NCBI RefSeq assembly: GCF_021249345.1
Contig: NZ_CP089588.1
Span: forward strand, 806,001 to 870,000
Direction: 5' to 3'
DNA from: Halobacterium wangiae
GTDB lineage: Archaea; Halobacteriota; Halobacteria; Halobacteriales; Halobacteriaceae
Length of the DNA stretch: 64,000 nucleotides
In this document: positions 9,504 to 18,870 of the stretch, one piece after another
Numbering within the stretch: the stretch's first letter is position 1
Layout of the letters: the number at the start of each line of letters is the position of its first letter
The notes under the pieces: generated by a model
What the model was told of the DNA's origin: nothing
What the model saw: only the letters and a program-made list of their open reading frames with translations
Databases searched by the model: none
Position numbers and translations under genes: made by a program

Positions 9504-9518
9504 TCGCACTACTTTTCC
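9504..9518 (+). repeat. attL direct repeat, 15 bp
   Basis: TCGCACTACTTTTCC, identical to 18856-18870. It lies in the intergenic space between the spermidine-synthase-like gene and the integrase and is interpreted as the left att core created by integration. Confidence 0.8.
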
Positions 9519-9528
9519 GGTGCATCCG

Positions 9529-9541
9529 CCCGGAATACCCG
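9529..9541 (+). repeat. Left 13-bp inverted repeat (candidate integrase arm site)
   Basis: CCCGGAATACCCG is the exact reverse complement of 18829-18841. It starts 10 bp inside the left core repeat; the right copy ends 14 bp before the right core. This placement suggests binding sites for the integrase or an accessory factor. Confidence 0.65.
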
Positions 9542-9591
9542 GAGCACGTATATTGTTGCCTGGCGAACGACAGAATCGAGGACCCCGAATA

Positions 9592-10929
9592 ATGTCGAAA
9601 AATCCACGCGAGAAGTTCGAGCGGGAACGCGGACGTTGCGAGGACATCGAGGACGACGACGTGCGAGAGGCCGTGCTCGCGTACGGCGACGCCATGGACC
9701 GCGAGTACGACTACGAGAACGCCCCCAAGCCCACCTCTACCGGCGCAGTCACGCGAGAGAGCAAATCGAACGGCACCGCGGCCATCTACCTCTCGGCAGT
9801 GCGCTCCGCCCACGACCGCGGCCTCAACCTCCTCGAAGCCGATGCCGAGACGGTCAACCACTTCATGCTGGACCTCGTGAACGACCCCGACGACCGCCGG
9901 TACGGCCTCGTGGACGAGGACTACGAGGACAAAATCCAGAAGTCGTCCGGCCAACGGTGGCAGTCCGCCCTCATCGGGTTCTACCGCTACTGCACGGAAC
10001 CCGGCGTCAGCGACGACCGCCCGACCGTCGCCGTCGAGTGGCCCGCCGACGACATCCACATATTTCCCGACCGGTCGGACCCGAAATACGACGAGGACGA
10101 CATGCCCGAGCAAGCCGACCTCGACGCGCTCCGGGAAGCCTGCCTGTACTCGCAGAACACGCACCGGGACCGTGCGCTCCTCGAACTCGCCGCCGGTACC
10201 GGCCAGCGCGTCTACGCACTCGTGACCCTGAAGGTCAAACACGTCCGTCTGGAGGATGAGGTTCCGCACATCCTGCTGAACCCCGAGATAGACGGCGACG
10301 GCGACAAGAACGCCATCGAGTATACGGGGCGATTCAAACCCATCGTCTCCGACATCGGCCCCATCCGCGAGTGGCTGCGGCACCACCCGCTCCGGGACGA
10401 CGACGTGCGCGCCAGATACGACGGCGTGCCCGAGCAGTTCGAGGACTGCTACCTGCTCATCGGCGCACTCAACCACAAGGACACCGACCCCACCAGTCAC
10501 TGGGACGCTGACGCTGCCCGCGACATGCTCGTCCGCCGCAAGGAGAACACCAAGACCATGCCCGGCGTGAAGACCGTGGACGTGCCCGTGAACCCCCACA
10601 ACTGGCGTCACTACGCCTACACGCGGTCGAAGGACCTCGCGATTCCCGAGAGCAAGCGCCGGTCGGTGTTCGGGTGGGCACGCGACTCGAACATCGGCGA
10701 ACGCCTCTACGACCACAAGGCGAACACGGACAACTCGCGGGATTTCGCCGACGCGTGGGCGGAGACGTTCGGGACCGAGGGCGGCACGAGCGTCGCCGAG
10801 CAGGTCGTCGGGGACGCCGCACTCGCGGACCTCTCCCCCGAAGCCACCCGGGCACTCGTCCGCGAACTCGCGACCGACGAGACCGCCATGCGGGAACTCG
10901 CCGCCGCCGTGCGCGAGGCCGCCGAGTAG
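9592..10929 (+). CDS. Tyrosine recombinase/integrase
   Basis: 445 residues of the XerC/D-like phage integrase family. Catalytic residues can be placed: Arg206 in TGQR, His336 and Arg339 in HNWRH, and nucleophile Tyr373 in RLYDH. An N-terminal SAM-like DNA-binding domain (about residues 50-160) and an acidic C-terminal tail follow the usual layout. The ATG at 9592 is chosen because the frame upstream runs through the att region and reads as non-coding. The gene sits directly beside attL, as is usual, and presumably drives integration and excision of the element. Confidence 0.92.
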   Translation: MSKNPREKFERERGRCEDIEDDDVREAVLAYGDAMDREYDYENAPKPTSTGAVTRESKSNGTAAIYLSAVRSAHDRGLNLLEADAETVNHFMLDLVNDPDDRRYGLVDEDYEDKIQKSSGQRWQSALIGFYRYCTEPGVSDDRPTVAVEWPADDIHIFPDRSDPKYDEDDMPEQADLDALREACLYSQNTHRDRALLELAAGTGQRVYALVTLKVKHVRLEDEVPHILLNPEIDGDGDKNAIEYTGRFKPIVSDIGPIREWLRHHPLRDDDVRARYDGVPEQFEDCYLLIGALNHKDTDPTSHWDADAARDMLVRRKENTKTMPGVKTVDVPVNPHNWRHYAYTRSKDLAIPESKRRSVFGWARDSNIGERLYDHKANTDNSRDFADAWAETFGTEGGTSVAEQVVGDAALADLSPEATRALVRELATDETAMRELAAAVREAAE

Positions 10930-11685: not shown

Positions 11686-12528
11686 CTACGTGAACTGTAA
11701 CCAGTAGGTGATGACGTTCAGCGACTCCCCCCAGTACGAACTTAGTACCATGAGGAGCGCTAACTTTACGGTGGCACTCGGACCCACGTGCTCCCAGGAG
11801 TCTGCCCAGTGGTTCAGTGCTTCCTCGGCTCGTGCACGAACGTTCTCCGAATCCTCCTGCCAGAAGACCTTAGCTGGCCGGATGACGTAGTAGATGAACC
11901 CCAATGGGGCAAGTAGGAGGACGACGACGTGCATCACGCCCATCGCCGGGAGCCAACCGACGATGGTCACGAGGAACAAGAAGCCTGTAATCCACGCAAG
12001 CCCGATAGCCTGCCATAAGAGCGTGAAACACCGATTCAGGTAGATTAGCGCCTCCGTCACGCGCTCATCATTCTCGAGAATCCACTCCACTAACAGGTCC
12101 TCCTCCGCGTCTGCCTCCGTCTCGGTTTCTACCGCTCTCCTTCTCGAAGTCGGCAGCGGGCTATCGATTTTCATTATCCAAATCGTATTCATCCCTGCCC
12201 CGTACAACAGGCCCACAGTAATCATCGCTAACATGACTATGACGGCCAGCGAGTCGTTGACAATCTCGGGGGCCTTCGCAGCGACACCGTTCTGGAAGAC
12301 GAGCGGCGAGTTCAGCAACTCGTACAACTGTCCGTTGTTTACGATAGCGGTGTACACCTCCGTGCCGGCGAGCCCGAGAACGAGGGCGGAGGCAGCAATC
12401 AGGAGCCGAAAGAACTTCTGGCCCTGTTCCTGGGCGTGACGGAACGTCTCGGCCTGCTGGGTGAGGACGAGTTCGCGTTGCGACTCGGACAACTGCCGCA
12501 CGTCCTCCCGCGTGAAGTGTCGGTCCAT
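11686..12528 (-). CDS. Polytopic membrane protein of the element
   Basis: 280 residues from the ATG at 12528 (MDRHFTREDVRQ). The frame continues upstream but there reads as antisense of the neighbouring zinc-ribbon gene. The N-terminus is a charged, Gln/Glu-rich amphipathic helix. Hydrophobic segments lie near residues 42-62, 90-112, 165-190 and 195-215, with a possible fifth at the C-terminus. An acidic loop separates the second and third. Codon use is less GC-biased than the chromosome, in keeping with transfer. No family recognised. Confidence 0.75.
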   Translation of the reverse strand: MDRHFTREDVRQLSESQRELVLTQQAETFRHAQEQGQKFFRLLIAASALVLGLAGTEVYTAIVNNGQLYELLNSPLVFQNGVAAKAPEIVNDSLAVIVMLAMITVGLLYGAGMNTIWIMKIDSPLPTSRRRAVETETEADAEEDLLVEWILENDERVTEALIYLNRCFTLLWQAIGLAWITGFLFLVTIVGWLPAMGVMHVVVLLLAPLGFIYYVIRPAKVFWQEDSENVRARAEEALNHWADSWEHVGPSATVKLALLMVLSSYWGESLNVITYWLQFT

Positions 12529-12706: not shown

Positions 12707-12841
12707 CTACTGCTCAGTGAAGCGGAAGTTAGTGCCGCCACACCCAGGGCAGGCATCAACGCGCCTTGGAGTGGGGTCGGTCGTATTCGTGCCGAGCAGC
12801 ACGAACCCACAGTCCCGACAGGCGATGTACTCAGACACCAT
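12707..12841 (-). CDS. Tiny zinc-ribbon protein (44 aa)
   Basis: Starts MVSEYIACRDCGF and ends with CPGCGGTNFRF; the two CxxC pairs (residues 8-11 and about 32-35) should bind one zinc. It begins 2 bp after the stop of the HalOD1 gene on the same strand, so the two form an operon. A similar protein (CRACG and CPDCGG) is encoded at 13971-14123 behind a DUF7344 gene. Probably a small regulatory or nucleic-acid-binding ribbon; function unknown. Confidence 0.7.
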   Translation of the reverse strand: MVSEYIACRDCGFVLLGTNTTDPTPRRVDACPGCGGTNFRFTEQ

Positions 12842-12843
12842 GG

Positions 12844-13257
12844 TCACCGGGCCTTAGTCGACTCCTCTGGGGGTGGTCGAATACAGATGATACCGTCGGC
12901 GTGGACCGTTACCTCGTAGTCAACGTACGTCACGGAGACGTGCATCTCTCCGAGTGCTGCCTCCGTTATCATCAGGTCGACCAGCGCGTCGTGTGCGTCT
13001 GAGCCAATGTCGTAGTAGACTGGGGGCAACTTCAACGGCTCCGTGTTCGAAACCGTCGCAACAGCGGAGACGACTTCCAGTGCGACGCACTCAGGATGGC
13101 TCCCGAGTTTCGCCCAGTACGTGTTTGTTTCTGCGTCGTAGTGGAGCGCCTCTCGCTCATTGGTTTCGCCCCATTCGGTATTCGCTACATCCGGGGTCGG
13201 AGGGAGAGCGTGTGGTACTGGTGGTATTCCCGTGCCTATTCGGTTGTTCATCACCAC
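12844..13257 (-). CDS. HalOD1 output-domain protein
   Basis: 137 residues. Residues about 60-128 match the haloarchaeal HalOD1 output domain: a VVSAVATV helix, the PLKLPPVYYDIG motif, an Asp-Ala-Leu helix, then VTYVDYEVTVHADGIICI beta strands. The N-terminal 55 residues contain an extra stretch (HYDAETNTYWAKLG). HalOD1 proteins are thought to be signalling outputs, but their mechanism is unknown. It is divergent from a second HalOD1 gene at 13438-13707 and precedes a zinc-ribbon gene by 2 bp. Confidence 0.82.
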   Translation of the reverse strand: MVMNNRIGTGIPPVPHALPPTPDVANTEWGETNEREALHYDAETNTYWAKLGSHPECVALEVVSAVATVSNTEPLKLPPVYYDIGSDAHDALVDLMITEAALGEMHVSVTYVDYEVTVHADGIICIRPPPEESTKAR

Positions 13258-13437
13258 CTCTTAAGGGACACGCACGAATGAACGCCAGTGATTTTCACGC
13301 CGTTCCGAATCTGGGTCAATGGGATGGCTGGCAAGACGCGGGGACTTCACTGGAAACGTGTAAACTGCGACCGCAGGCAACTACCGGGTCGTATACTGGC
13401 AAGAGCGGGTTTCCCGTTGACGGTCCAAATAGCGTGC

Positions 13438-13707
13438 GTGAGAGATACACAGGAGTTCTTCTACGAGCCGAATGAGGATGAACCGCTAAGCACAGCAGTC
13501 GTCACGGCGGTTGCAGAGGCACACCACGAGGATGTAATCGAGCAAAAGTGGGTCATCAGTGACGATATTAATGCAGACGCACTCGACGGGCTCTTTCAAC
13601 AGAACAATCTCAAGATGACCCTCCAGTTCGAGGCGGATTCGACGACCGCGACTATCGTCGCCGACAAAAACGGAAATCCAGTCATCAAAATCGAATCGCA
13701 CCGCTAA
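13438..13707 (+). CDS. Second HalOD1-like output-domain protein
   Basis: 89 residues from a GTG start at 13438. The helix LSTAVVTAVAEAH, an Asp-Ala-Leu helix (INADALDGLF) and the final strands ATIVADKNGNPVIKI match a HalOD1 domain. The usual LPPLY motif is replaced by KWVISDDI, so it is a divergent copy. An open frame extends to an ATG at 13288, but that extension is basic and unlike a protein of this group. A TATA-like GTATACT lies about 50 nt upstream near 13390. Confidence 0.65.
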   Translation: MRDTQEFFYEPNEDEPLSTAVVTAVAEAHHEDVIEQKWVISDDINADALDGLFQQNNLKMTLQFEADSTTATIVADKNGNPVIKIESHR

Positions 13708-13970
13708 GTATGCACATCTCCATCACAATCAGGTGTTCAGTAGTCGACCGACCAAACGGGCCGAAGCGTCGCGCCGGCCACGGTCGCACCCCGGACTACT
13801 CGGTTCTGACGGGTTCTCGGCATTGCGGCGAGCCCGCGCCACACGGCCCGCTCAGCCGTTCTCGCACTCGGCCCGACCAATCGAGAACCCGACGCCACGG
13901 ACGGAGCGTGGCGGGAGGGCTGGCGCCACCGAATCGCTCAGTCCGTCAAATCACGCCGCCACCTGCCCCC

Positions 13971-14123
13971 TCAGTCGTCGGTGCGGACAATCGTCCCCGT
14001 GTCGTTGTGCTTGAACTCCACGCCCCCACAGTCCGGACACGCTTCAACTCCCGGCACAAACTCGCCGTCCTGCTTCTTGCCTCGGGTGAACTCGCCACAC
14101 GCCCGGCACATCAGCATCTCCAT
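13971..14123 (-). CDS. Tiny zinc-ribbon protein (50 aa)
   Basis: Starts MEMLMCRACGEF, with a second pair in CPDCGG; the two CxxC pairs indicate one bound zinc. Its ATG overlaps the stop of the upstream DUF7344 gene by one base (TAATG), so translation is coupled. It resembles the ribbon at 12707-12841 in the CRxCG and CPxCGGxxF positions. An in-frame upstream start at 14159 would overlap the DUF7344 gene more and is less likely. Confidence 0.7.
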   Translation of the reverse strand: MEMLMCRACGEFTRGKKQDGEFVPGVEACPDCGGVEFKHNDTGTIVRTDD

Positions 14124-14467
14124 TACGCCACCACGCCGCGAGTGAGATACTGCGACCATTCGTCCGCTGGGACTACTGTGGGAGCGCCCCAGTACCGGAC
14201 CGTGGCTGACCGGGCGTCGTAGTCGATGAGGCCCTGGTCGGCTAACTTCGGCAAGTCACGGTGGTGGAGGTTCTTCCGGACGTGCTCGCGCTCGGTGTCG
14301 GCCTGCTGCGTGGCGAGGAACGCAGTGAGGTCGTCCAGCGATGCCGTGGCCTCCCCCGTCCGCTCAAAGTAGGCCAGCACGAGCCGTCGCTGGTCGCTCG
14401 CGAGCGCCGCGTGCAATCGACTCATGGTCGCCGTATCGCCCCCCGTCGTGAAGGGGTGAGTGGACAT
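14123..14467 (-). CDS. DUF7344 winged-helix protein
   Basis: 114 residues. The block from ASDQRRLVLAYF through LDDLTAFLA and the VRKNLHHRDLPKLADQGLIDYD segment match the haloarchaeal DUF7344 winged helix, where the HHxxLPKL helix is the recognition element. It is a likely DNA-binding regulator. The promoter box CTTATAAAA on the minus strand (about 14526-14534) is roughly 60 nt upstream, so the message has a short leader. Followed by an overlapping zinc-ribbon gene. Confidence 0.8.
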   Translation of the reverse strand: MSTHPFTTGGDTATMSRLHAALASDQRRLVLAYFERTGEATASLDDLTAFLATQQADTEREHVRKNLHHRDLPKLADQGLIDYDARSATVRYWGAPTVVPADEWSQYLTRGVVA

Positions 14468-14554
14468 GGAACGTTTTAGTCCTCAACTCCGGGTAGGGCC
14501 TATCGTTGAACAGTCAACCTCTTTTTATAAGCGTGGGTGGCGGGATGGAGCGTG

Positions 14555-15223
14555 TCACCGGAAATCCGCTGCCGAGGAGAGCAACGCCTGTTTGAGGACC
14601 TTCTCGTTGCCGCGGCGAATCCGATTCGAGACGGCCTGCTCGGAAATCCCGAGTTTGTCGGCGAGGTCGGCGAGTGAGGTCCCCCGGGGCGTCTGGAAGT
14701 AGCCCTCCTGGAGCGCCAAGACGAGCGCCTCGCGCTGGTCCTGGGTGAGGTCGAACCGGTGGCCGAACTTCGTCTTCTCGGTGAGCGTGTACGACCGCTC
14801 GATGTGGATGTCGATGTCCTGCCCAGTGCAGAGATTGTAGAACGTCGAGAGTGCGTCGTGGTCGCGGAACCGAACGCGGAATGCCCAGCCGTTATTTCCG
14901 AAGCCTTCGAGGATAGCACCACCGCTCTGGGTGATGATTTCCAGCAGACTGAACGGCTCGTCAGCCCACTCGACGCGGTAGAGCACCCAGTCGTCGGCCC
15001 GGTCGAGGGCGTCGAACCTGCCGATGACGGGATTCTCGTTGATGTGCTTCTCGAACGCCTCGTAGTTCTCGCCATGCACCCATAGGAAAGGGATGACTGC
15101 ATCGCCGGTCGGGACGAGGCGTTCGAGTTCGATGCGCAGCCCTGCCTGCCCCGCCGGCTCCGCCAGCACCTCTCCGAGCAGGAACTCCTCGTCCGGAATC
15201 GTGAACTCAACGATGACACTCAT
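14555..15223 (-). CDS. Bat-type HTH (HTH-10) transcriptional regulator
   Basis: 222 residues. The N-terminal 150 form the bacterioopsin-activator-like ligand domain that begins MSVIVEFTIPDEEFLLGEVL. The C-terminus is the HTH-10 DNA-binding domain: LTQDQREALVLALQEGYF, TPRGTSLADLADKLGISEQAVS and a final NEKVLKQALL helix. Such regulators control diverse haloarchaeal genes, and this one may have been brought in as element cargo. A nested inverted repeat directly before the start codon (15229-15263) could be its own operator. Confidence 0.88.
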   Translation of the reverse strand: MSVIVEFTIPDEEFLLGEVLAEPAGQAGLRIELERLVPTGDAVIPFLWVHGENYEAFEKHINENPVIGRFDALDRADDWVLYRVEWADEPFSLLEIITQSGGAILEGFGNNGWAFRVRFRDHDALSTFYNLCTGQDIDIHIERSYTLTEKTKFGHRFDLTQDQREALVLALQEGYFQTPRGTSLADLADKLGISEQAVSNRIRRGNEKVLKQALLSSAADFR

Positions 15224-15390: not shown

Positions 15391-16359
15391 TCAGTCCGAC
15401 TTGCCTTTCTTCCGCGCCACCGCGTTCCGCCGCTCCTCCTCGGCCTCCGCGTACCGGGCAACGAGCAGCGGGTATCGCTGTTCAACCAACGTCGCCCGCG
15501 CCTCGTACGCCGACCGGCCACCCACGGGAACCTCCTCGTCCGGCTCCTGCGGGAGCCCTGCCTGTTTTCGTTCCCACGCCGACCGCCCGCCAGCGGGCCA
15601 GTCGTCCTCGTCGTCGCCCGCGGCGTTCGACCGGGAGAACGGCCCCGGGACCGCCGCGTAGTTTACGCGCTGCTCGTCGTCGGCCTCCGCCTCCTTCCGG
15701 GCCGCCCACGAGGACCGCGTCCCCGTCGCCACGTCCGCGTTCGTCGTCGGGTCCGCCTCCTCGCCGCCGTCGTAGATATACCGGGGGTCCGCGTCCACCG
15801 CCGTCTCGTTCTCCCGCCTGACAACCTCGGGGTCCACCCCCCGGACCCGCGCCGCCGCGTGGTAGCAGAGTGCGTCTATGCAGTCGCACTCCTCGGGCCG
15901 CCACCCCACGACGTGGGCCGAGAGGAACACGCCCTTCTCCTTCTCCGGTATCTCCGTCCCGTCCTCCTTCAGGGCCGCCACGGCCGCCTCACGCTCGGCC
16001 GCGCTCTTGAAAACGCGCACCTCCTCGTCGTCCTCGTCGGTCTGGTCGACCGCGTGCTCGCCGTCGTGCTCGCCGTAGTCATTGTGGGTGTGCTCGTGCT
16101 CGTGCTCGTGCTCGTCGTCGTTCATGGAAGTAGTGGTCTGCTGGTCGCTGTCGTTCGCCGTGCTCGCCGCCCTGTCCGCCTCGCTCTCCGTGTCCGCGCC
16201 TGGGTCGTGCTCCTCGTCGCCGGTCGCCGTGTGAACGGTGCCGGTTCCGCACCCGCAGCCGCAGTGCGTACGAAGCGGGCCGACCGACTCCCCGCGTGCG
16301 GCTGCTATTGCTCGCGCCTGACCCAGCGACGGGGGCGTGTGCTCCTCGCCGTCAGTCAT
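15391..16359 (-). CDS. Acidic His/Cys-rich hypothetical protein of the element
   Basis: 322 residues. Notable stretches are a Cys-Gly cluster HCGCGCGTG (about residues 32-40), a His-Glu run EHEHEHEHTH (about 83-92) with more His-acidic residues after it, and a CDCIDALCYHAAARVRG segment near residue 165. The C-terminal third repeats GGRSAWERK / GGRSAYEAR and TRSSWAARKE, an internal repeat of about 10 residues. Metal binding is suggested. The start overlaps the upstream gene by 8 bp. No family recognised. Confidence 0.75.
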   Translation of the reverse strand: MTDGEEHTPPSLGQARAIAAARGESVGPLRTHCGCGCGTGTVHTATGDEEHDPGADTESEADRAASTANDSDQQTTTSMNDDEHEHEHEHTHNDYGEHDGEHAVDQTDEDDEEVRVFKSAAEREAAVAALKEDGTEIPEKEKGVFLSAHVVGWRPEECDCIDALCYHAAARVRGVDPEVVRRENETAVDADPRYIYDGGEEADPTTNADVATGTRSSWAARKEAEADDEQRVNYAAVPGPFSRSNAAGDDEDDWPAGGRSAWERKQAGLPQEPDEEVPVGGRSAYEARATLVEQRYPLLVARYAEAEEERRNAVARKKGKSD

Positions 16360-17144: not shown

Positions 17145-18707
17145 CTACCCTCGCACCACCGGAGGCGGCTTCCCTCGCGCCACCACCGTAGCACGCACCC
17201 CGAACCCGCCACCGACCGCGGACACCACCACCTCGCACACCGGAGCATCCACAACCACGACCTCGCCCTCGACCGGGGACTCGTCTACGTGCTCCGTCAC
17301 CGTGTCGTCCACCGCGGCCAGCACCGCCGGGTCCGACGCACCGCGAATCGCCGGCACCGAATCGGGCGCGTCCGCCCACGACGGCTTCGGCACCACGCGA
17401 GTACACGGCAAGGCCCAGAAGAGCGCCCCCACCCGCGCCGCTGCGGGATGCACGTCCACACCCTCGACGCCCGTCACGTCCACCGGCAGGTCCGGCCCCC
17501 GACCCGGCTCCACCTCCACGTCCCCCAGCGCGCCGTGCGCGTCCGCCATCGCCCGCCGCTCCCCCGCATCGAGGTCCGCCGCACTCGCGAGCGCGTTCGC
17601 CCCCTTCGCCAGATACGCCGCCGGCGAACACCCGTCCGCGTCCTCCGGGGCTGCATCCGCCCACGTCCACGCCTCCGAGGATGCGCCCGGCCCCGTCGCG
17701 GTCGCGCGTAGCGGCTGCACCTCCACCTGATGCCCGCGACCCCGATGGGTCGCCCAGTAGTCCTTCAGGTCCGCCCGGTGCTCGACCAGCGCCGCCGCGT
17801 CCACCCCGAACACCACTACGTGGACGTGCGGGAGTCCGCGCGCCGAGACGTCCAGCACCCAGAGCACCGGCGGCCGCCCCGGCAAGTCCAGCACCCGCTT
17901 CACCTTGCCCTTGAACAGGTCCACGTCCTTCGGGAGTGACTCCGCCGCCTCGTAGAGACTCCCGCACCACCCCTCCGCGGTCGTCAGCGTCACGACCGCC
18001 GCCTCCAGCACGCCCGCCTCGGCCGCCGCCGCGAACGAATCCAGTACCCGGTCGCGAGTGGCTAACGCCCTCGACAGCGTGTTGTACTTCGAATCCGTCC
18101 GCACCTCTGCCGGTCCCCGCTCGTGGCCCAGCCGCTTCGCCGCCCAGTCACCCAGCAGTCCCTCGTAGTCCTCGGCCGTATCCAGCGCCTCTCGCCGCTT
18201 CAACCGGCCGCGAGCGTTCGCCAGCGACTCCGACGCCGGTTCCGCCGCCGACTCCTCGGTGTCCGCTCCGTCCCTCGTTGGAGGGCTTTGCTTACTTGCT
18301 GTATTGAACTTCTCCGCGTCGTCGAGGAGTTCGAACGCCTGGAACGCCTCTGCCGTCGGGAACACCCAGCGTGGCCGGTTCCACGGGCGTTCCTGGGGGC
18401 CGATGCGTTCGATGCGTACCACGTCGTGGCGCGCCAGCGCGTCCGTGAAGTCCTTGAGGCGGTTGTAATCGTAGGTCGAGTTTCGGATGGCGTCGTGGTC
18501 GTAGAGATGCTTCACCAGCGCGGAGAACCGGACGCCGTAGCCGTCTGCTTCGACGATGCGACGGAGGGCAGCGATTCGGACTTCTCGGCGGGAGTCCTCG
18601 AACAGGTCCGCCCACGGGTACGATTGTGGTATTCGGCCGGGGTGTTGAGACACACCCCGCGCGTCCGCATCGTTCCCGCCGCAGTCGGAGACGCTCACGC
18701 AGCCCAC
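17145..18707 (-). CDS. Rolling-circle replication initiator (HUH Rep)
   Basis: 520 residues. The three rolling-circle motifs appear in order: VVTLTTA (motif I, about 238-244), LPHVHVVVFG with the metal-binding HVH at 294-296 (motif II, HUH), and YLAK at 365-368 with the nicking Tyr365 (motif III). Residues about 40-120 look like an N-terminal winged helix (FSALVKHLYDHDAIRN), which could bind the origin. The C-terminal 140 residues have no recognised fold. GTG starts at 18698 and 18653 are alternatives to the ATG at 18707. It implies that the element can replicate as a circular plasmid. Confidence 0.88.
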   Translation of the reverse strand: MGCVSVSDCGGNDADARGVSQHPGRIPQSYPWADLFEDSRREVRIAALRRIVEADGYGVRFSALVKHLYDHDAIRNSTYDYNRLKDFTDALARHDVVRIERIGPQERPWNRPRWVFPTAEAFQAFELLDDAEKFNTASKQSPPTRDGADTEESAAEPASESLANARGRLKRREALDTAEDYEGLLGDWAAKRLGHERGPAEVRTDSKYNTLSRALATRDRVLDSFAAAAEAGVLEAAVVTLTTAEGWCGSLYEAAESLPKDVDLFKGKVKRVLDLPGRPPVLWVLDVSARGLPHVHVVVFGVDAAALVEHRADLKDYWATHRGRGHQVEVQPLRATATGPGASSEAWTWADAAPEDADGCSPAAYLAKGANALASAADLDAGERRAMADAHGALGDVEVEPGRGPDLPVDVTGVEGVDVHPAAARVGALFWALPCTRVVPKPSWADAPDSVPAIRGASDPAVLAAVDDTVTEHVDESPVEGEVVVVDAPVCEVVVSAVGGGFGVRATVVARGKPPPVVRG

Positions 18708-18828: not shown

Positions 18829-18841
18829 CGGGTATTCCGGG
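18829..18841 (-). repeat. Right 13-bp inverted repeat (candidate integrase arm site)
   Basis: CGGGTATTCCGGG, the exact reverse complement of 9529-9541. It lies 14 bp inside the right core repeat. See the left copy for interpretation. Confidence 0.65.
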
Positions 18842-18855
18842 TGGGCCAATCGGAT

Positions 18856-18870
18856 TCGCACTACTTTTCC
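18856..18870 (+). repeat. attR direct repeat, 15 bp
   Basis: TCGCACTACTTTTCC, identical to 9504-9518. It ends 28 bp before the ATG of the tRNA methylthiotransferase gene, where a leaderless haloarchaeal gene would have its basal promoter. Integration here would rebuild the same 15 bp in front of that gene. Confidence 0.8.

Follow-up and report, generated by a model that had tools for sequence, protein, structure and literature searches.

In Halobacterium salinarum, transcription of bop needs both Bat and Brz, which probably cooperate at the protein level. Mutants in the zinc finger of Brz lose bop mRNA with bat mRNA unchanged, and the bat homologues boa2 and boa4 adjoin small CPxCG genes (PMC2253796, PMC3184054). 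In Haloferax volcanii, the HVO_1357-HVO_1359 locus has been linked to motility and the quorum response (PMC7824242, PMC12240190). A first-pass annotation of the DNA studied here had held that no function is described for a regulator paired with a tiny zinc-ribbon protein; Bat with Brz, and boa2 and boa4 beside their small CPxCG genes, provide a precedent. The literature mentioning HalOD1, in the portion accessible to us, describes no ribbon pairing, and we found no paper that names DUF7344.

We analyzed a gene block at 12707-15223 of the window (the whole stretch of DNA under analysis, 64,000 nucleotides), which is part of a 3.11 Mb haloarchaeal chromosome in one contig (G000). All genes named in the first-pass annotation were confirmed in strand and position (see the table). 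They form two same-strand runs, bat to DUF7344 to ribbon-B, and a second operon in which HalOD1-A is the lead gene and ribbon-A follows; HalOD1-B is a single gene on the opposite strand without a ribbon. The first reading had overlooked that bat is the gene immediately before DUF7344 and is part of the DUF7344 cassette.

Features of the gene block and of the element that encloses it (window positions)
Feature	Position	Strand	Description
Left attachment repeat	9504-9518		TCGCACTACTTTTCC; 15-bp direct repeat; single copy with one mismatch at the G027 empty site
Tyrosine integrase	9592-10929	+	445 aa; PF00589 E 2e-6, phrog_1 E 2e-11
Ribbon-A	12707-12847	-	44-46 aa; CRDCG...CPGCGG; GTG start
HalOD1-A	12844-13251/57	-	~135 aa; PF18545 E 1.3e-13, 51.3 bits (cut-off 26.3)
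HalOD1-B	~13438-13707	+	PF18545 E 4.6e-9, 36.7 bits (cut-off 26.3); start uncertain
Ribbon-B	13971-14123	-	50 aa; CRACG...CPDCGG; third gene, optional
DUF7344 winged-helix protein	14123-14467	-	114 aa; PF24035 E 2.8e-13, 50.5 bits (cut-off 27.8)
Palindromic operator-like site	14505-14518		GTTGACTGTTCAAC (TTG-N6-CAA), in the bat-DUF7344 gap; GTTGA-N4-TCAAC in the window
TATA-like box	14522-14530	-	TTATAAAAA; precedes the palindrome by 3 bp; read from sequence
Bat-type regulator	14555-15223	-	222 aa; BAT domain and C-terminal HTH_10; opens the DUF7344 cassette
Rep-like replication protein	17145-18698	-	HxH motif; PF23343 E 7e-4, below its cut-off
Right attachment repeat	18856-18870		TCGCACTACTTTTCC; 15-bp direct repeat

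The bat-type regulator matched HTH_10 (PF04967, E 5.1e-16, 58.7 bits against a cut-off of 23.1) and BAT (PF15915, E 3.7e-9, 37.0 bits against 25.8). These were the only family matches over its full length, and no PAS, GAF or receiver domain was found; since it lacks the PAS/GAF sensor domains, we call it bat-like rather than Bat. HalOD1-A and HalOD1-B are ordinary members of the HalOD1 family. Both ribbons fall under the size and motif definition of CPxCG zinc-finger micro-proteins taken from PMC2253796 (<70-100 aa, with 7-40 residues between two CPxCG-like motifs). We assume from the motif that they bind zinc; some Haloferax CPxCG proteins bind none, according to the part of PMC11241148 available to us. 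The start of ribbon-A overlaps the stop of HalOD1-A by 4 bp (GTGA), and that of ribbon-B overlaps the stop of DUF7344 by 1 bp (TAATG), suggesting translational coupling of each ribbon to the gene before it.

Two neighbors of the block had no family match. Directly downstream of ribbon-A lies a gene for a probable membrane protein of 280 aa (11686-12528, minus strand; Pfam and NCBIfam searched), and 15391-16359 on the same strand encodes a 322-aa acidic low-complexity protein that is rich in His and Glu over one stretch and contains a CGCGCG run. A TTG ~18 bases upstream of the GTG is a possible alternative start of HalOD1-B (13420-13450, plus strand). The sequence TTGACGGTCCAA in front of HalOD1-B looks like an operator but was not counted as one, since it lies in frame at this possible TTG start. 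Sequences resembling TTGAC..TCCAA also precede two other HalOD1 genes in the genome.

The ribbons are conserved proteins, with dN/dS ratios that point to purifying selection in most close pairs. Ten of the 14 close pairs compared gave a dN/dS of 0.06-0.36, among them ribbon-B and its counterpart in the sister genome G027 (0.27), and the ribbon-A family is likewise under purifying selection. Two almost undiverged pairs gave 0.60 and 0.89, another pair had no synonymous change, and one outlier ribbon-B pair (G124/G136) ran contrary to the trend at 1.07. Relatives occur in ~10-15% of the sampled genomes of the order: a single-sequence search (E 1e-3) found ribbon-A in 32 and ribbon-B in 29 of 293 genomes, and an alignment-based search (E 1e-4) found them in 58 and 38 of 392. 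Neither ribbon belongs to the curated HVO_0758 family of NCBIfam (15.4 and 18.9 bits against a cut-off of 70); ribbon-B matched HVO_0758 weakly and under the cut-off (E 0.001-0.003).

We observed DUF7344 directly upstream of all 14 ribbon-B family members (11 genomes, 5 families) in a search whose alignment had been built from DUF7344-linked ribbons; the nine best hits of a single-sequence ribbon-B search, which is independent of this choice, likewise all follow a DUF7344 gene. A bat gene stood further in front, in the same direction, at 10 of the 14 (the window and nine further loci). Starting instead from the bat protein, we found DUF7344 directly behind 25 of its 30 closest relatives and a ribbon at only eight of the 30 loci, broken at two of these eight, which argues for a bat-DUF7344 core with the ribbon as an accessory. 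The first-pass proposal of regulator and ribbon as the unit therefore holds in part: protein-level conservation of the ribbon frames and recurrent pairing in other haloarchaea were borne out, but we reject the pair as the unit, since bat-DUF7344 operons without a ribbon are commoner. The ribbon is missing from most bat-DUF7344 operons and is broken in three genomes (G149, G224 and G320), suggesting that it is dispensable. Computationally, we could show a conserved operon order across haloarchaeal families, a predicted winged-helix fold, a conserved palindrome closely following a TATA-like box ahead of DUF7344(-ribbon), and a ribbon-B that always stands behind DUF7344 and in one case is fused to it.

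At three loci, ribbon-B is interrupted by a stop or frameshift and the bat and DUF7344 genes in front look intact, so that the ribbon seems in the process of being lost. Three of the five bat relatives without DUF7344 have another small, Cys-rich (zinc-finger-like) protein behind them. The window's own genome holds a second DUF7344-ribbon pair outside the element (G000:C1:1215566-1215712), where a bat-type gene lies in front on the opposite strand.

A natural fusion joins DUF7344 and the ribbon in frame. This protein, WP_224270959.1, is encoded on the Haloprofundus salinisoli plasmid NZ_CP083664 by a single reading frame of 164 codons and carries the annotation hypothetical protein. Its predicted structure (pLDDT 90, pTM 0.71) shows a winged helix, a long helix and a four-cysteine ribbon; given this pTM, the arrangement of the ribbon relative to the winged helix is uncertain. 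Residues 12-116 of the model reached Z scores of ~10 to ArsR/MarR-type regulators (CadC, HlyU and CzrA) and 9.8 to the haloarchaeal RosR, and a Foldseek search with the fusion model returned no match at E <0.001. Judged on this homologous fusion, DUF7344 is predicted to adopt a winged-helix (ArsR/MarR-like) DNA-binding fold. The HalOD1-A model (pLDDT 76) had no meaningful match in the PDB.

A different account would make the ribbon a general nucleic-acid-binding micro-protein that is merely co-transcribed and acts elsewhere, without contact to DUF7344, HalOD1 or bat. This would fit the absence of the ribbon from most bat-DUF7344 operons, the ribbon-A relatives that frequently stand alone without HalOD1, and the stress, biofilm or swarming phenotypes of several small CPxCG proteins, as described in the accessible part of PMC6562870. 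The unbroken link of ribbon-B to a preceding DUF7344, mostly with overlapping genes and once as a fusion, argues against it, and we rate this account as unlikely.

Next, we considered the 87 bp gap between bat and DUF7344. It carries GTTGANNNNTCAAC, whose single match in the 3.1-Mb genome is the one in this gap. Across 26 distinct homologous gaps, the exact dyad TTG[A/T]...[A/T]CAA occurred in 15, against 0.46 expected (a maximum of 4 in 2000 simulated sets); the palindrome is altered or missing in about a third of the homologous gaps. In many of them a TATA-like element lies right ahead of the palindrome. TTG-N6-CAA preceded 18 of 33 DUF7344 genes when bat stood in front, versus 0 of 87 otherwise. 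In four HalOD1-type gaps we found by eye TT[A/G]-N6-CAA at the equivalent place; bat is the component shared by both types of gap and would therefore fit as the binder.

We lean, with modest confidence, towards reading the block as a transcription-control cassette that regulates itself and travels as cargo of an element; its ribbon would modulate bat/DUF7344 as Brz does Bat. The operon order, the DUF7344-ribbon fusion, the bat tree, the operator statistics, the dN/dS ratios and the Bat-Brz precedent favor this reading, whereas the dispensable ribbon, the gaps with an altered or missing palindrome and a HalOD1-A operon that lacks bat count against it. Its core would be the bat/HTH_10 regulator and the winged-helix DUF7344 protein. 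A bat dimer, or less likely a DUF7344 dimer, would bind the TTG-N6-CAA palindrome. Because the palindrome sits between the TATA-like box and the DUF7344 gene, binding would most likely repress DUF7344-ribbon and so provide feedback. The ribbon may serve as an optional small co-regulator that contacts DUF7344 or bat and alters binding of DNA or polymerase, a role like the one proposed for Brz, together with Bat, in bop transcription.

The element itself is an integrative element with a tyrosine recombinase. It spans 9.35 kb, is bounded by 15-bp direct repeats and encloses the gene block; the two genes that flank it, one spermidine-synthase-like and the other of the radical-SAM/TRAM (MiaB) type, are direct neighbors in the sister genome G027, where a single TCGCACGACTTTTCC between them marks the empty site. 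Just inside both ends we noted inverted copies of CCCGGAATACCCG (9529-9542 and 18829-18841), which are probably integrase arm sites. Searches with the Rep-like protein and the integrase did not find a close sister of the element: the Rep-like protein had no match in the plasmid, genome-contig and viral-contig sets and matched weakly in 3 of 98 other genomes, and the integrase had no relatives in 88 other genomes. Of the mobile regulatory module that the first-pass annotation proposed, the integrated element was thus substantiated, but the relatives of the cassette lie in chromosomes or large plasmids and megaplasmids, beside metabolic genes, and were not found in relatives of this element.

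The location in an integrated element that has an integrase and Rep, the gene overlaps and a palindromic operator adjoining a TATA-like box would also suit an addiction or anti-repressor module, in which DUF7344 represses element genes and the ribbon antagonizes it with a phage-like or toxin-antitoxin logic. The genomic settings of the relatives and the many operons without a ribbon speak against such a module, as does the lack of any toxin-like protein; no toxin or antitoxin family appeared among the Pfam, NCBIfam and PHROGs matches. We also rejected a phage origin of the cassette, as this bat had no relative in 50,697 phage records and ribbon-B was absent from the viral contigs in a scan that detects close relatives only. 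Overall, we consider an addiction module improbable.

In the HalOD1 version of the cassette, HalOD1 lies directly upstream of ribbon-A relatives at ~10 loci, and the order bat-HalOD1-ribbon occurs at seven loci, one of them in the window's own genome. The bat tree separates a DUF7344-linked clade from a clade linked to HalOD1 and/or ribbon-A, with 100/100 support for the split. The HalOD1-A-ribbon-A pair in the window comes without a bat gene; this operon would represent the second version of the cassette design, bat-HalOD1-ribbon, minus its bat. We found no HalOD1 remnants by eye in the bat-ribbon gaps of two loci (L020 and L025). We rejected a general pairing of HalOD1 with a ribbon. In stretches around ~101 HalOD1 and 45 DUF7344 genes of six genomes, outside which the second DUF7344-ribbon copy of the window's genome falls, a ribbon stood directly behind one HalOD1 gene (~1%) and none of the DUF7344 genes, suggesting that the pairing is limited to particular subfamilies.

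HalOD1 and DUF7344 have 21 and 22 matches in G000, and seven of the 21 HalOD1 genes have a DUF7344 gene no more than 2.5 kb away, where 0.6 would be expected (0 of 20,000 random placements). This abundance and mutual clustering would fit a chance assemblage, within a mobile element, of regulator genes that are widespread in haloarchaea. As a whole, such an assemblage is highly improbable: for bat-DUF7344-ribbon it is contradicted by the conserved order, by the operator that the loci share and by the way the cassette types follow the bat clades. For the two cassettes lying side by side it is conceivable.

A wider extension of the autoregulated-cassette reading is tentative, and we regard it as rather doubtful. 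It would posit a haloarchaeal family of self-contained gene switches, each combining a bat/HTH_10 regulator with an interchangeable DUF7344 or HalOD1 protein and an optional ribbon. These proteins would form a single complex on DNA, which would regulate its own genes via TTG-N6-CAA, and plasmids and integrative elements would spread the switches. If this were true, such switches would be previously undescribed, and the very common HalOD1 domain would act as a subunit that partners bat regulators. Both DUF7344 and HalOD1 are regulator-like domains with comparatively many copies in haloarchaea, ~20 of each in G000 and similar numbers in several other genomes. The conserved bat operons, the fusion and the operator-like site offer for them a partner set, a minimal construct and a candidate binding site.

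Compared with known systems, the cassette is a variant of the bat plus small zinc-finger protein partnership, carried by an integrative element. It shares with the Bat-Brz(-Brb)/bop system a bat/HTH_10 regulator and a small CPxCG zinc-finger protein (PMC2253796, PMC3184054), a linkage that we found in the window, at nine further ribbon-B loci and at seven loci of the HalOD1 version. Unlike Bat, the cassette bat has no PAS/GAF sensor domains; no DUF7344 or HalOD1 partner has been described for Bat-Brz, whereas the ribbon gene of the cassette overlaps a winged-helix gene or is fused to it, and there is no adjacent bop-like target. The HVO_1357-HVO_1359 locus likewise has a BAT/HTH_10 regulator near a small CPxCG gene, but HVO_1357 carries HalX and GAF domains and acts as a response regulator (PMC7824242, PMC12240190). 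CPxCG micro-proteins, HVO_0758 and HVO_2753 among others, resemble the ribbons in size and in their two CPxCG-like motifs; the ribbons differ in their link with operons of DUF7344 or HalOD1. Stand-alone HalOD1 proteins such as DdfA (PMC5847659, PMC10869688) differ from HalOD1-A, which has a ribbon behind it. In REC-HalOD2 response regulators, the output domain of a haloarchaeal regulator is similarly followed by a fused CXXC...CXXC zinc finger (PMC5847659), but there the parts form one protein with a different domain, whereas the cassette keeps them as separate genes with one natural fusion. The conserved bat operons widen the Bat-Brz partnership from the control of bacteriorhodopsin to a more general haloarchaeal design.
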